Of a stretch of DNA of 64,000 nt, positions 4,466 through 10,776 are shown piece after piece. Origin of the DNA: Henriciella aquimarina (GTDB lineage Bacteria > Pseudomonadota > Alphaproteobacteria > Caulobacterales > Hyphomonadaceae); the NCBI RefSeq assembly GCF_002088975.1, contig NZ_NCST01000116.1, positions 124,001-188,000 on the forward strand, given 5' to 3'. Position numbers and translations under genes: made by a program. The notes under the pieces are model-generated. The model was not told the DNA's origin and made no database searches. It worked only from the letters and a program-made list of their open reading frames with translations. How positions within the stretch are numbered: the stretch's first letter is position 1; every line of letters starts with the position of its first letter.

Positions 4466-5083
4466 TCAACCCGGCCGCGCAACAAGGTCCGACAGCACAG
4501 GCAACCGCTCGACCGCCTCGGCAATCTTCGTAAGGGCCGGACTGTTCTCGAGATGCCAGGCTCGTCGGGGCGTCCAGCGCGTGATCACGGCCACGTAGAT
4601 ATCCAGCGCCGAGTAGCGCTCTCCCAGGAACCATGGCCCTTCCGCGGCGGATTCAAGGTCCCCGTAGAGACGATGCGCATAACCGTGAACAGCGTGGACG
4701 AAGGATTCCTGCGCGCCTTCGACGGGCACGAAACGCGAGGGCAAATCCACATAGGTGTAGGTCGGATAGATGTTCGCGACGATGAAGATGAGCCAGCGCA
4801 GGAAGTGCGCCCGCTCCGGCGCGCCAGCCGGCGGCACAAGATCATCGCGACCCGTGAGGTCTGCAAGCAGCAGCGTGATCGCGGCGCTTTCCGTCATCAC
4901 GGTGCCGTCATCGAGGATCAAGGTCGGAATCTGGCGCAGCGGGTTCACCTGCCGCAGCGCATCCTCCGCCCCGACATCGTCGAACAGGTCCCCGGTCGGG
5001 ATAAAGTCATAGTCGATGCCATAGAGGGCGAGCTGGTACTCGACGATATCGGAGCCCCAGTGCGGCATGCCATAGAGTTCCAT
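4466..5083 (-). CDS. glutathione S-transferase family protein
   Basis: A 205-residue GST-like protein, starting MELYGMPHWGSD, with a thioredoxin-fold N-terminal half containing NPLRQIPTLILDDG (cis-Pro region) and MTESAAITLLLAD (glutathione gamma-Glu contact), and a helical C-terminal half. Substrate is unknown. It lies 13 bases downstream of marC on the same strand, so the two are probably co-transcribed, and it converges on hbd. This is one of three GST-fold genes in the window. Confidence 0.82.
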   Translation of the reverse strand: MELYGMPHWGSDIVEYQLALYGIDYDFIPTGDLFDDVGAEDALRQVNPLRQIPTLILDDGTVMTESAAITLLLADLTGRDDLVPPAGAPERAHFLRWLIFIVANIYPTYTYVDLPSRFVPVEGAQESFVHAVHGYAHRLYGDLESAAEGPWFLGERYSALDIYVAVITRWTPRRAWHLENSPALTKIAEAVERLPVLSDLVARPG

Positions 5084-5096
5084 CAGGCGATTCCTC

Positions 5097-5726
5097 CTAG
5101 ATTTCCGTCGTGCGGATCAGCTCGATCACTGCCAGGATGACCGTATTGACCGCCACGGCGGCCAGGATCATCCCCATGATCCGGCTCACCAGCGCGGCGC
5201 CGGCCGGGCGGATCACCCTGAGGATCGGCGACGCGCAAAACATCAGGGCGAGTGCGCACAGCATCACGACCAGCATGATCCCGGCGGTCACCGCCTGCTG
5301 CTCGAGACTGAAGCGATTATTATCGGTCAGAACGACAATGGCGAGGATGGCCCCCGGCGACGCCAGGGACGGCATGGCCAGTGGAAAGACCGCCACAGAC
5401 CCGCCGCTGTTCTCACCTGAAAAGCCCAGCGTCTCCGACTCCGGCTTGGAATCGCCAAAGATCATGGTCAGCGCAAACAGCATCAGGACGATGCCGCCGG
5501 CAATCTGGAAGGCCGGAAGGCTGATGCCCAGCGCATTGATGAGAAACTGGCCCGCCACCAGAAAGAAGAGCAGCACGAGCGTCGCCGTAAAGGCGGCCTG
5601 AACCGCAACCTTCCAGTGTCGCGACCGGTCGATACCCGCAACGACCGCAATGAAGACCGGAATCGTCCCGATCGGATCGATCACGACCCAGAGCAAAATG
5701 AATTGTTCGAGCAAATTATGCGTCAT
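5097..5726 (-). CDS. MarC family integral membrane protein
   Basis: An inner-membrane protein of 209 residues with about six hydrophobic segments. It has the family N-terminus LLWVVIDPIGTIPVFIAVV and the central FPLAMPSLASPGAILAIVVL segment. MarC/YchE proteins were named for linkage to the mar locus, but a role in drug resistance is not established. The gene heads a likely two-gene unit with the GST downstream. It starts about 100 bases beyond the stop of the MarR-type gene, on the same strand. Confidence 0.88.
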   Translation of the reverse strand: MTHNLLEQFILLWVVIDPIGTIPVFIAVVAGIDRSRHWKVAVQAAFTATLVLLFFLVAGQFLINALGISLPAFQIAGGIVLMLFALTMIFGDSKPESETLGFSGENSGGSVAVFPLAMPSLASPGAILAIVVLTDNNRFSLEQQAVTAGIMLVVMLCALALMFCASPILRVIRPAGAALVSRIMGMILAAVAVNTVILAVIELIRTTEI

Positions 5727-5829: not shown

Positions 5830-6270
5830 CTATGAAAGCTCGCTGAGACCTTCCCGTAACAAATCGGGCGAACACGCTTCCAGGCTCTCGTCGATCTTCG
5901 CGTGCTCGGCTTCCCATATCGGGGCCGCCCTGACGAGCAGCGCGCCGCCCTCATCGGTCAGCACCAGCAAGCGGCTGCGCCGGTCGGCAGGACTGGGCCT
6001 CACCTCGACCAGGCCGCGCCGCTGAAGCGGTTTGAGATTGGCCGTCAGCGTCGTACGGTCCATGGCAAGAAGGCTCGCAACGGCGCTCATCGGCGGCGGC
6101 TCCGGCCGGTTCAGGGACATGAGGAGCGAGAATTGTCCGCTGGTAAGCCCAAGCGGGCGGAACGCCTCGTCAAACCGGCGCGCCAGCGCACGCGCGGCCC
6201 GCTGCGCAGCAAGACATAGGCAATGGTCGCGAACATGGAGGGTGGTTTCGTAGGGGAGCTGATTCGTCAT
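5830..6270 (-). CDS. MarR family transcriptional regulator
   Basis: A 146-residue winged-helix regulator. Visible parts are the dimerisation helix (CLCLAAQRAARALARRFDEA), the HTH (SAVASLLAMDRTTLTANLKPL) and the wing (VEVRPSPADRRSRLLVLTDEG). I use the ATG at 6270 because GGAG sits six bases before it; ATGs at 6282 and 6276 lie in or beyond that site. It is divergent from the GST at 6332, and an 18-bp perfect palindrome lies between them. By analogy with other MarR proteins it probably represses both itself and the GST/DUF1428 pair until a ligand binds. Confidence 0.9.
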   Translation of the reverse strand: MTNQLPYETTLHVRDHCLCLAAQRAARALARRFDEAFRPLGLTSGQFSLLMSLNRPEPPPMSAVASLLAMDRTTLTANLKPLQRRGLVEVRPSPADRRSRLLVLTDEGGALLVRAAPIWEAEHAKIDESLEACSPDLLREGLSELS

Positions 6271-6283
6271 TGACATCTCCATT

Positions 6284-6301
6284 TATGTTGATATCAACAT
6301 A
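6284..6301. promoter_or_regulatory. 18-bp perfect palindrome, likely MarR operator
   Basis: TATGTTGATATCAACATA reads the same on both strands; its core TTGATATCAA resembles the symmetric AT-rich sites bound by MarR dimers. It is 14 bases upstream of the marR-type start and 31 upstream of the GST start. On the minus strand a TTGACT (6310-6305) and a CATAAA 17 bases on would place it inside the promoter. The palindrome is seen directly; binding by the adjacent regulator is inferred. Confidence 0.75.
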
Positions 6302-6331
6302 TTTAGTCAAGGCAATCATACAGGCCTCCTC

Positions 6332-7012
6332 ATGCCGCTGGATCAGAGTGCTACGCTTGAGCTTTTCGCCTTCAACTGGGTTCCCGACATGGCCCGTGGC
6401 ATGGTCCGCGATCTCCGGCCGCGCTGGGCGATGGAAGAAGCTGGCCTGTCTTACCGCACGCATCTTCTGAATGCCGGCGAAGCACGCCCGGAGAGTTATT
6501 TCCTGAAACAGCCGTTCGGGCAGGTCCCCACCCTGGCGGATAACGGAATTGTGGTCTTCGAGTCTGGGGCCATCCTGCTTCACCTCGCCGAGAAGAGTGA
6601 CATCCTGATGCCGAAGACAGCAGCAGGCCGGGCCGCCACACAGAGCTGGCTGTTTGCGGCCCTCAACAGCGTGGAATCCTTCGTGTTCGAGCTGTTTTTC
6701 ATCAATGTGATGTATGCAGACGAAGAGTGGGCCAGACTGCGACAGCCCGGGGCCGAAGATTTCATGCGCCGACGACTGGCACCTGTCTCGGGCGCACTCG
6801 GCGACAAGGAGTACCTCACCGGCCAGTTCACCGTCGCCGATATCGCGATGGCCACCGTTCTGCGAGAGCTGGACCGTTATCTGCCACTCGCGGAGTTCCC
6901 CAATCTCGACGCCTATCTCAAACGCTGCCTTGCCCGGCCCGCCTTCCAACGCGCGCTGGACGCGCAACTGGCAGACCTCACCGCGCCAGCGCCTGAGACC
7001 TTCCCCGCCTGA
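6332..7012 (+). CDS. glutathione S-transferase family protein
   Basis: A 226-residue GST-fold protein. The N-terminal domain has the cis-Pro block PFGQVPTLADNG and the Glu-Ser pair VFESGAILLHLAE; the C-terminal helical domain contains LTGQFTVADIAMATVLREL, with the conserved Asp of the N-capping box. It is divergent from the MarR gene across the palindrome and is followed after 20 bases by the tandem DUF1428 gene, so the pair is probably one transcript. The context suggests detoxification of an electrophile; the substrate is not known. Confidence 0.86.
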   Translation: MPLDQSATLELFAFNWVPDMARGMVRDLRPRWAMEEAGLSYRTHLLNAGEARPESYFLKQPFGQVPTLADNGIVVFESGAILLHLAEKSDILMPKTAAGRAATQSWLFAALNSVESFVFELFFINVMYADEEWARLRQPGAEDFMRRRLAPVSGALGDKEYLTGQFTVADIAMATVLRELDRYLPLAEFPNLDAYLKRCLARPAFQRALDAQLADLTAPAPETFPA

Positions 7013-7032
7013 GCGCCCTGAAAGGACCTGCC

Positions 7033-7782
7033 ATGACATATATTGAAGGCTTTATCCTCGCCGTTCCTGAAGACCGCAAGGCGGACTTCATCGCACATGC
7101 CTCGGCGGCTTTTCCGCTGTTTGAGGAGTTCGGCGTTACCCGCCATGTCGAGTGCTGGGAAGATCATGTCGAGGACGGCAAGATCACCGACATGCGCCGC
7201 GCCGTCAAAGCAAAGCCCGGTGAGAAGGTCGTGTTCTCCTGGCTCGAATATCCGTCCAAAACGGTCCGCGACGGCGCCTATGAAAAGATGATGAGCGATC
7301 CGCGCATGGCGGACATGCCGGAAATGCCGTTTGACGGCCAGCGCATGATCTATGGCGGTTTTGAAGCGATCTCCGATATCGGTATCGGGCATGCGGACCC
7401 CTATGTGAGCGGCTCCGTCTTTGCGGTTCCCACAGCGAACAAGGCCGCCTTCACCGAATTCACGAAGAAAATGGCTGAGGTCTTCAAGGACCATGGCGCT
7501 CTCCGCCTGATGGATGCCTGGGGTGTCGACGTGCCTGTTGGAAAGGTCACCGACTTTCAGGGCGCTGTGCAGGCGAAAGAAGACGAAACGGTGTCGTTCG
7601 GCTGGATCGAGTGGCCGTCAAAGGCCGTGAATGACGAGGCCTGGCCGAAAATCATGGAAGACCCGCGCATGGCGGAAATCACGATGCCTGCCGATGGGGC
7701 GCGCATGATCTTTGGCGGCTTCACGCCGGTTGTGAACCTCTTCGCAAAGGTCAGCTCCGCCAGCGGAGCGTCACCGGCTTGA
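7033..7782 (+). CDS. tandem DUF1428 protein (two copies fused)
   Basis: A 249-residue protein made of two homologous halves, about 1-120 and 128-245. Each has a similar start (YIEGFILAVP / YVSGSVFAVP), a central WEDHVEDGKITDMRRAV / WGVDVPVGKVTDFQGAV block, and the ending DGQRMIYGGFE / DGARMIFGGF. DUF1428 proteins are usually single-domain, roughly 120-residue members of the dimeric ferredoxin-like (dabb/EthD-like) fold, so this looks like a covalently joined dimer. AAAGGA precedes the ATG by seven bases. It follows the GST gene and converges on the Rieske gene with a 32-base overlap. Function unknown. Confidence 0.85.
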   Translation: MTYIEGFILAVPEDRKADFIAHASAAFPLFEEFGVTRHVECWEDHVEDGKITDMRRAVKAKPGEKVVFSWLEYPSKTVRDGAYEKMMSDPRMADMPEMPFDGQRMIYGGFEAISDIGIGHADPYVSGSVFAVPTANKAAFTEFTKKMAEVFKDHGALRLMDAWGVDVPVGKVTDFQGAVQAKEDETVSFGWIEWPSKAVNDEAWPKIMEDPRMAEITMPADGARMIFGGFTPVVNLFAKVSSASGASPA

Positions 7783-8863
7783 TCGGGTTCTCGAAGGGGC
7801 GCTCCTCGGTGCGCGAGGCGGCCCACTCCTTCTTCAGCGTGCGGTACCATTTGGCCTGCACGTCGATGTCGTCGATCCAGATCATCGCCTTCTGATACTT
7901 CATACCCTCGTTCTGGAGATCGACGATATCGCCATCCTGGCGCAGGAATTTCCGTGCGGCCGGCTTGAAGACCGGGATGGCAAGGTTGAGCAGTGGGGCG
8001 CCGGTAAACCAGGTCACCTGCGTGATCCGCGTCTTCTTCTTGTAGACCGGCGTCAGACAGGTCAGCGTCAGCAGCCGCGCTTTCTCGTTCTCGACGATTT
8101 CCCAGCGATAGCCCGGCAGCTGGAAGATGATCTCGGTCGTCACCTTCCCGCCAAACACCGCCTTGTAGGCAAGCGAATTCGAGGAAGGCTGGTGACGATC
8201 AATCGCCCAGCCGCGCTCACGCGGCACGAAGGGCTTTTCCTTCAGCTTCAGCCCCGCGCTCGGCGGGCGCCACCACCATTGCGAATGCACGAAGGCGACA
8301 TGCGCCGGGTCCATCAGGCCGACGACAGCATCGTCCATATGCGCATTGAACTCTTCGGCGATGATGAATTTCGGCTTTGCGGGCAGTGGCCCGAAATCCG
8401 GCGGAGGCAGGTCCGGCTCGCCATGAAGGCGCGGATCGTCCGCGATAAAGACGAAGATCAGGCCATTGGCCTCATGCACCGGATAGCGGCGCACCTTGAA
8501 GCGGCTCGCCTCATAGGGCTGCTCTTCCAGCACGGACGGCATGTGGCGGCAGACTCCGTCAGTGCCGAAGCGCCAGCCATGATAGGGGCACTCAACCGTC
8601 GGCTCGCCTTCTGTATCCTTGATCTTGCCCGCCGAGAGCGGCACGAGCCGGTGCGGGCAGATATCCCGCAGCGCGAACGCCTCGCCCGCCTCTGTGCGGC
8701 CCACGACAATCGGCTGGTCCAGCATGATGAAGTGCTTCAGCCCGCCTGTCTTCAGCTCAGACGAGGGACAGGCGAGATACCAGTTATCGGTCAGCCAGCC
8801 TTCAGCGGTCATGCCCGGCTGGCTCTCTGTCTTGGCGTCGATGAGTGTCTCTGTGTCGGCCAT
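7751..8863 (-). CDS. Rieske-type ring-hydroxylating oxygenase, terminal component
   Basis: A 370-residue oxygenase alpha-type subunit. The Rieske [2Fe-2S] site is C69-P-H71 and C92-x2-H95. The mononuclear iron site is H188-x4-H193 (in DPAHVAFVH), with a further acidic ligand expected downstream. Size and layout resemble single-component-type demethylases/hydroxylases of the vanillate O-demethylase/phenoxybenzoate dioxygenase group. No dedicated reductase or ferredoxin is adjacent. AAAGGA precedes the start. The last 32 bases overlap the end of the tandem DUF1428 gene on the other strand. The substrate cannot be inferred. Confidence 0.88.
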   Translation of the reverse strand: MADTETLIDAKTESQPGMTAEGWLTDNWYLACPSSELKTGGLKHFIMLDQPIVVGRTEAGEAFALRDICPHRLVPLSAGKIKDTEGEPTVECPYHGWRFGTDGVCRHMPSVLEEQPYEASRFKVRRYPVHEANGLIFVFIADDPRLHGEPDLPPPDFGPLPAKPKFIIAEEFNAHMDDAVVGLMDPAHVAFVHSQWWWRPPSAGLKLKEKPFVPRERGWAIDRHQPSSNSLAYKAVFGGKVTTEIIFQLPGYRWEIVENEKARLLTLTCLTPVYKKKTRITQVTWFTGAPLLNLAIPVFKPAARKFLRQDGDIVDLQNEGMKYQKAMIWIDDIDVQAKWYRTLKKEWAASRTEERPFENPIKPVTLRWRS

Positions 8864-8970: not shown

Positions 8971-10776
8971 ATGATATCCCGTGACAAGATCCGCAATTTC
9001 TCCATCGTGGCGCACATTGACCACGGCAAGTCCACCCTCGCTGACCGGCTGATCCAGGTCACGGGCGGGCTCACCGACCGTGAGATGCGCGAGCAGGTGC
9101 TCGATTCCATGGATATCGAGCAGGAGCGCGGCATCACCATCAAGGCCCAGACGGTGCGGCTGAAATACACCGCGAAGGATGGCGAGACCTACATCCTGAA
9201 CCTGATGGACACGCCAGGCCATGTCGACTTCTCCTATGAAGTCTCGCGCTGTCTCGCGGCCTGCGAAGGCTCGCTGCTGGTCGTGGATGCCAGCCAGGGC
9301 GTCGAGGCGCAGACGCTCGCCAATGTCTACCAGGCCATCGAGCAGGACCACGAGATCGTGCCCGTGCTCAACAAGATCGACCTGCCGGCAGCCGATCCGG
9401 AGCGCGTGAAGGAGCAGATCGAGGACATTATCGGCCTCGACGCTTCCGACGCGATCGAGATTTCGGCGAAGAACAATATCGGCACCGAGGACGTGCTCGA
9501 AGCCATCGTCCACCGCCTGCCCCCGCCGCCGGAGGGCGACCCGGACAAACCGCTCAAGGCGTCCCTGATCGACGCCTATTACGATCCCTATCTCGGCGTC
9601 GTCGTCATCGTGCGTATTGTCGACGGCGTCCTGCGCAAGAAGCAGAAGATCCGCATGATGCGGGCGAAATCGACCTATGAGGTCGACAAGGTCGGCATTT
9701 TCGGCCCGAAGCCCACCGATGTCGAAGAGCTCGGCCCCGGCGAAGTCGGCTTCCTGACGGCCTCGATCAAGGAAGTGGCCGAAACCGCCGTCGGCGACAC
9801 GATCACCGACGAGAAGAAGCCGACCGACACCCCGCTTCCGGGCTATAAGGAAGTCGTGCCCATGGTTTTCTGCGGGCTCTTCCCCGTCGATGCCGGCGAC
9901 TTTGACGACCTGCGCAACGCCATGAGCAAGCTGCGCCTGAACGACGCCTCCTTCACCTGGGAGATGGAGACCTCTGCCGCGCTCGGCATGGGCTTCCGCT
10001 GCGGCTTCCTTGGCCTGCTTCACCTTGAGATCATTCAGGAACGCCTGTCGCGCGAATTCGACCTGGACCTCATCGCGACGGCCCCGTCGGTCGTCTACGA
10101 GATGACCATGACAGACGGTTCCGAAACGGAACTTCACAATCCGGCCGACATGCCGGACGTGGTCAAGATCGCCGAGATCCGCGAACCCTGGATCACCGCG
10201 ACGATCTACACGCCGGATGAGTATCTCGGCTCCATCCTGCAGCTCTGCCAGGACCGGCGCGGCATCCAGAAGGAGCTCTCCTATGTCGGCGGCCGGGCCA
10301 TGTGTAAGTATGAGCTGCCGCTCAACGAGATCGTCTTCGACTTCTATGACCGTCTGAAATCCATCTCCAAGGGCTATGCGAGCTTCGACTATGAGATCAT
10401 CGGACACCGCGCCGGCGACCTCGTGAAGATGTCGATCCTGGTGAATGACGAACCCGTCGATGCGCTTTCCATGCTGGTCCACCGCGACCGTGCCGAAGGC
10501 CGGGGCCGCCAGATGTGCGAGCGGCTGAAGGATCTCATCCCCCGCCAGATGTTCAAGATCCCGATCCAGGCTGCCATCGGGGGCCGCGTCATCGCACGCG
10601 AAACCATTTCGGCCCTGCGCAAGGATGTGACCTCCAAGTGCTATGGCGGCGACGCGACGCGCAAACGCAAGCTTCTGGAAAAGCAGAAAGCCGGCAAGCA
10701 GCGCATGCGCCAGTTCGGCAAGGTCGAGATCCCGCAGGAAGCCTTCGTCGCTGCTCTGCGCATGGATGACGATTGA
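8971..10776 (+). CDS. lepA: elongation factor 4 (LepA), ribosome back-translocating GTPase
   Basis: A cytoplasmic translational GTPase that acts on stalled ribosomes and in initiation. The 601-residue length is standard. GTPase motifs are AHIDHGKST (about 12-20), DTPGH (about 79-83) and NKID (about 133-136). The LepA-specific C-terminal domain is seen in [20 protein letters not shown] and in [20 protein letters not shown] near the end. The start is [19 protein letters not shown], which fits the family. It is divergent from the Rieske gene. Confidence 0.97.

Follow-up and report, generated by a model that had tools for sequence, protein, structure and literature searches.

The genome of Henriciella aquimarina carries, on contig NZ_NCST01000116.1, a compact group of four genes that raises a simple question: which of them answer to the MarR-family repressor encoded among them? 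The window analysed here – 64,000 nucleotides, positions 124,001 to 188,000 of the contig in assembly GCF_002088975.1 – contains at 5830-8863 a marR gene, a glutathione transferase (GST) gene, a gene for a tandem DUF1428 protein and a Rieske oxygenase gene. A preliminary description proposed that these form an inducible, MarR-controlled pathway in which the oxygenase product is conjugated or bound by its neighbours. From comparative sequence evidence we conclude that MarR, a palindrome between marR and GST, GST itself and DUF1428 are a genuine unit, and we consider it likely that MarR acts as a switch on a GST-DUF1428 detoxification operon from which the oxygenase is excluded.

Conservation of the MarR unit and its predicted operator within the family

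The marR gene (5830-6282, minus strand) and the GST gene (6332-7012, plus strand) form a divergent pair separated by a 49-nucleotide gap, which contains TATGTTGATATCAACATA, an 18-bp palindrome (6284-6301, no strand) that is perfect across all 18 bp, has a conserved core GTTGATATCAAC at 6287-6298, and is the predicted operator. The tandem DUF1428 gene (PF07237; 7033-7782, plus strand) follows GST on the same strand after 20 nucleotides, and converges with the Rieske gene (7751-8863, minus strand) through an overlap of 32 nucleotides (7751-7782). All of this – genes, coordinates, divergence across the palindrome and convergent overlap – reproduces the preliminary description, although the overlap is not conserved, the aligned gene ends lying 6-276 nucleotides apart in nine same-genus relatives with both neighbours. 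Translation of marR probably begins at the ATG at 6270; a start there would give a protein of 146 amino acids and matches the N-termini of orthologs. We rejected the palindrome as a striking chance event on its own, a weak argument since one perfect 18-bp palindrome was observed in 64 kb where 20 mononucleotide shuffles gave 0.5 on average; its weight lies in its position within the divergent gap and in its conservation, not in its rarity.

That conservation was followed in a family sample of 105 genomes, which are related and thus not independent. A MarR ortholog (E 4e-41 or better) is present in 27 of them, and GTTGA-N2-TCAAC lies near the marR start in all 27, the window's included, as the exact GTTGATATCAAC in 15, GTTGATGTCAAC in 11 and GTTGAGGTCAAC in one. 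The operator is absent at all three distant MarR paralogs tested, and the palindrome is also missing at two same-genus loci that have DUF1428 without marR and GST (L030, L032). Of the 27 genomes, 23 have DUF1428 no more than 3 kb from the MarR ortholog and 20 have GST there. Across the whole family sample, 80 of 105 genomes have a DUF1428 match, and 10 of the 29 from the window's genus have it in full-length tandem form; among named relatives, the DUF1428 locus is closest to that of a Henriciella metagenome-assembled genome (L002). The extra partners that recur with the MarR unit are VOC/glyoxalase-fold proteins, and in several genomes of genus g4 the operon reads GST-VOC6-VOC17-DUF1428, where VOC6 belongs to PF06983 and VOC17 has a glyoxalase fold.

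Some plasmids, which do not enter the counts given here, carry related neighbourhoods. On a Roseinatronobacter plasmid, from another order, a GST gene adjoins a tandem DUF1428 gene next to an ArsR-SRPBCC pair (L092, 4305-5714). A VOC-DUF1428 neighbourhood was seen on a plasmid in Aureimonas, and no GST beside DUF1428 in Devosia.

The predicted operator across Alphaproteobacteria

In a wider sample of 289 Alphaproteobacteria genomes, 32 have a MarR ortholog (E 1e-30 or better). The locus test took in 29 of the 31 matches other than the window's, one of them cut by a contig end, and the operator was present with at most two mismatches at all 28 testable loci and exactly at 21. Among genomes with MarR, 28 of 32 contain the exact 12-mer, and among those lacking MarR 41 of 257 do (p 5e-16); counted by genus, the figures are 22 of 26 and 40 of 198 (p 1e-10). 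This genome-level comparison is inflated by the larger size of MarR-bearing genomes, and its signal is partly the marR-linked site itself. We therefore give more weight to the DUF1428 loci and to sites remote from marR.

The DUF1428-locus test covers 29 of the 41 class matches. The site was found at 8 of 11 loci from MarR-bearing genomes versus none of 18 from genomes lacking MarR (p 4e-5); with the loci collapsed to genera, the counts are 5 of 8 and 0 of 14 (p 0.002). Two of the site-bearing loci have marR adjacent (G383, G209); in three genomes (G119, G239, G339) the DUF1428 gene sits on a different contig from marR, and in three more of a single genus (G137, G266, G363) marR is some 7 kb away from a VOC17-DUF1428 pair that has the site in front of it. 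These unlinked and distant sites, and their absence from the 18 control loci, argue against the view that the palindrome only autoregulates marR while GST and DUF1428 are expressed independently. That view draws on the many class members in which the gene divergent to marR belongs to another family, and we regard it as very improbable indeed.

Remote sites point the same way: 11 of 21 in MarR-bearing genomes directly precede a DUF1428 or VOC gene versus none of 19 in genomes lacking MarR (p 2e-4). This evidence counts only these two families, which were fixed beforehand; the 21 sites come from eight genera, five of which supply the positives, and the control covers 19 of 48 sites. The sites of G377 and G268 are outside the set examined. 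A larger pool that also includes SRPBCC, ArsR-AHSA1, BNR-repeat, DUF899 and MFS genes accounts for 19 of the 21 (misses in G263 and G226), a count kept out of the evidence because these families were added after the loci had been seen.

Operator copies in other Alphaproteobacteria (L338-L351) lie ahead of genes for BNR-repeat (sortilin-like) proteins, SRPBCC proteins and one MFS transporter.

The window's own genome (G000) has one exact operator copy. Three further GTTGA-N2-TCAAC sites there adjoin none of the pool genes searched, and we dropped the idea of a wider regulon in this genome on that ground.

By comparison across genomes, the predicted link between regulator, site and target is well supported. 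That MarR acts through the palindrome on GST and DUF1428, one part of the block first proposed, is upheld because the site is conserved, because palindrome, marR and GST are absent together, and because the site recurs at unlinked DUF1428 genes; the Rieske part of that block does not stand.

Distribution and synteny of the Rieske oxygenase

The model that includes the oxygenase in the MarR unit, with its product conjugated or bound by GST and DUF1428, has two observations in its favour. The Rieske gene is adjacent in all ten same-genus genomes with a full-length tandem DUF1428, and G089, of another genus, has a second, differently arranged adjacency, in which the Rieske gene is followed after 32 nucleotides, in the same orientation, by a single DUF1428 gene (L184, 4629-6115). 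The latter is the sole such adjacency seen outside the window's genus and is the one independent point for an oxygenase-linked model.

Against these stands the distribution of the gene. A Rieske match occurs in 105 of 105 family genomes at E 0.001, and in 104 it is strong, at E 2.3e-77 or better and with 59-91% identity in nearly all of them (G088 has 46%), only G050 having a weak match alone (5.7e-6). By coordinates, which can miss pairs split between contigs, it is adjacent to DUF1428 in just 11 of the 80 family genomes with DUF1428, namely the ten of the same genus and G089, and only 8 of 27 genomes, all from one genus, have it no more than 5 kb away from the MarR ortholog. Across the class a Rieske relative (E 1e-60 or better) is present in 43 of 289 genomes, and of the nine that also have DUF1428 (E 1e-20) the two are linked in the window's genome only. 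No operator was found at any of 45 control Rieske loci (29 class, 16 family).

Synteny argues the same. The order HBDH-Rieske-LepA occurs without the cassette at six loci (L056, L060, L071, L077, L078, L080), and in a subset of loci MarC, marR, GST and DUF1428 are found between HBDH and Rieske, sometimes in partial form: marR with DUF1428 (L028, L031), DUF1428 alone of marR, GST and DUF1428 (L030, L032), or MarC alone (L059, L063). From this shared synteny of cassette-less and cassette-bearing orders we infer the ancestral arrangement. In the window the start of the Rieske gene faces the presumed lepA (8971-10776, a gene outside the protein scan), and over 2.5 kb separate it from the palindrome. 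Among eight proteins scanned between 3566 and 12688, neither a reductase nor a ferredoxin partner was found. The oxygenase itself matches at the level of the Rieske domain only ([2Fe-2S] domain, 81.5 bits), and its matches assign it no substrate; CPH...CPYH and DPAHVAFVH are visible by eye, with presumed roles.

On distribution and synteny, then, we reject the Rieske oxygenase as a pathway member: it is most likely an unrelated resident neighbour, part of the syntenic background and not a pathway step, and the model that enlists it is very unlikely. The four-gene pathway of the preliminary description thus fails on co-occurrence in relatives, where marR, palindrome, DUF1428 and GST mostly travel together and the Rieske gene is found irrespective of the cassette.

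Two side observations concern these neighbours. As an apparent core gene of the family, the oxygenase is worth a study of its own. Between HBDH and marR, the window also carries a second GST gene (4466-5083) and a gene for a MarC-family membrane protein (5097-5726); MarC is common at this position in the genus, and among the compared loci the second GST is matched only in the window and L002.

The MarR, GST and DUF1428 proteins

The MarR protein has the winged-helix domain of its family (PF01047, 39.9 bits versus a cut-off of 24.6), and a cysteine pair, C21-x-C23, that is invariant in all 27 family orthologs, the window's included, and in all 29 class orthologs (56 of 56). C23 aligns by phmmer with the cysteine of an LCF motif in 5hli, a protein that we take to be AbfR and whose LCF cysteine we presume to be redox-active. 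EstR Cys16 is reported to be redox-active and equivalent to OhrR Cys22. The window's MarR lacks the paired tyrosines of this mechanism, so that thiol sensing by the C-x-C pair stays a motivated inference; the position of C23, in the N-terminal helix at the sensing site of OhrR and EstR, argues for it.

The rival is a classical ligand-binding MarR, resembling MhqR or Saro_0803, in which a pocket takes up a phenol, quinone or stilbene and the C-x-C pair is structural; it shares the regulon with the reading we prefer, and we hold it to have rather less than an even chance. In its favour, MhqR is reported to respond to quinones by a mechanism that involves no thiol and to regulate ring-cleavage dioxygenases through a 9-9 bp palindrome, and Saro_0803, a MarR protein released by resveratrol, is the best NCBIfam match to the window's MarR, at 50.8 bits versus a cut-off of 200. 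The OhrR equivalog scores 44.9 bits, below the same cut-off of 200. The invariance of the cysteines, which tells against the rival, would be compatible with a structural role too.

The GST (GST_N, 49.5 bits) has as its nearest solved relative AtuGSTH1-1 (2ycd, 3lq7), matched at 160 bits over residues 12-220 of 226, with R26 at the position of the essential Arg34 and F14 at that of Phe22. AtuGSTH1-1 is described as an enzyme of the Eta class that is highly active as an organic-hydroperoxide peroxidase and requires Arg34. By its sequence the window's GST is probably Eta-like, a predicted glutathione transferase/peroxidase.

The DUF1428 protein matches PF07237 at 251 bits in two stretches, with two YbaA-like ferredoxin-like domains predicted per chain, and belongs to the same family as Shigella flexneri YbaA (2okq, 148.8 bits). 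The best of five structural models, built from a five-row alignment, has a pLDDT of 83.9 and a pTM of 0.80, with the others at pLDDT 80.5 to 65.2. Its best PDB match is 2okq over about 112-116 columns. Most of the model's length also aligns with ferredoxin-like proteins of two domains, 2pgc among them, in keeping with a fused pseudo-dimer.

Proposed mechanism and its significance

The scheme that we propose is as follows. A MarR dimer would bind the GTTGATATCAAC palindrome in the 49-nucleotide gap and repress both marR and the divergent GST-DUF1428 operon, a link that the comparative data support. An inducer, most likely an organic hydroperoxide, a quinone or a similar electrophile, may react with C21-x-C23 or bind nearby, releasing the repressor and derepressing a glutathione-dependent pair for electrophile or hydroperoxide detoxification. 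The Eta-like GST would then reduce the compound or conjugate it with glutathione, and the DUF1428 pseudo-dimer would bind or convert a related intermediate. In relatives the same repressor and site appear beside VOC/glyoxalase, SRPBCC, DUF899 and BNR-repeat proteins and an MFS transporter, as in a modular detoxification regulon that may be reduced to one operon in the window's genome.

Several observations weigh against this scheme, beyond the larger size of MarR-bearing genomes. No sigma-70-like promoter was found at 6200-6400 by a promoter scan, two same-genus loci (L028, L031) have marR and DUF1428 without GST, and the strict site is missing at 3 of the 11 DUF1428 loci from MarR-bearing genomes. 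At the three loci of genus g44 (G137, G266, G363) a different MarR paralog, of 38-39% identity, lies about 1.3 kb from DUF1428 and could be its regulator. Neither a GST nor a DUF1428 match occurs within about 1.5 kb at 21 of 29 class MarR loci, and the targets are thus modular. In the proteins themselves, the OhrR tyrosines, expected at +14 and +25 from the cysteine by the spacing Cys16/Tyr30/Tyr41 of EstR, are F37 and S48 in the window's MarR, so that the chemistry of a classical OhrR need not apply; the cysteines may be structural, or the protein may simply bind a ligand in the manner of MhqR; and the GST differs from AtuGSTH1-1 at two of four active-site residues (Ser25 to V17, Arg187 to E179).

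On a larger scale, a C-x-C MarR thiol switch with a fixed GTTGATATCAAC operator may govern, throughout the class, a modular set of small proteins for detoxification (DUF1428, Eta-like GST, VOC, SRPBCC, DUF899, BNR-repeat), a proposal that we judge evenly balanced; no account of such a regulon was found in the open-access literature searched. If true, it would assign DUF1428/YbaA to a functional setting, the defence against electrophiles. What began as a guess about one locus becomes a regulator-operator pair that can be tested and that predicts targets in many genomes. The uncharacterised DUF1428/YbaA family is tied to glutathione- and VOC-based detoxification. The tempting oxygenase next door, most likely syntenic background, counsels caution in reasoning about operons from proximity.

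Comparison with known systems

In the open-access literature searched, which leaves most subscription papers outside its scope, no paper on DUF1428 function or on this operator was found; DUF1428 appears there in a gene-table line on E. coli ybaA. The operator 12-mer was not found in open-access papers among the matches listed, none of which by title concerns this regulator, no open-access paper joins four of the five terms MarR, SRPBCC, VOC family, operator and Alphaproteobacteria, and none with DUF899 was among the open-access matches listed for MarR, DUF899, glyoxalase and regulon.

Individual components have clear relatives. The GST resembles AtuGSTH1-1 (Atu3701), its best solved relative, in the residues matching Arg34 and Phe22, but has Val and Glu in place of Ser25 and Arg187. 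YbaA (2okq) is of the same DUF1428 family and is the best fold match, whereas the window's protein fuses two copies. Saro_0803, the nov1 repressor of Novosphingobium, is the closest named MarR model but scores far below cut-off and has a different target; the letters of its operator were not found in the passages searched.

Two regulatory systems come closest as a whole. The MhqR regulon of Bacillus subtilis and Staphylococcus aureus likewise has a MarR repressor, a 9-9 bp palindrome, and scattered ring-cleavage dioxygenases with other electrophile-detoxification genes; however, its operator TATCTCGAA-aTCGAaATA differs from the window's palindrome, its inactivation is reported as not thiol-based, and GST and DUF1428 are unnamed among its targets in the text examined. 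OhrR/EstR of Xanthomonas and Agrobacterium share a sensing cysteine at the equivalent position, a divergent target and an operator in the shared gap, but their operators TACAATT-AATTGTA and GTTATCGCGATAAC differ from the window's, and the window's MarR lacks the OhrR tyrosines, has an extra cysteine (C21) two residues away and has other targets. By operator and residue tests, the window's system functions like MhqR or OhrR/EstR and belongs to neither: it is of an ordinary kind, and its MarR-operator unit, with the oxygenase excluded, is a new and well-conserved example.

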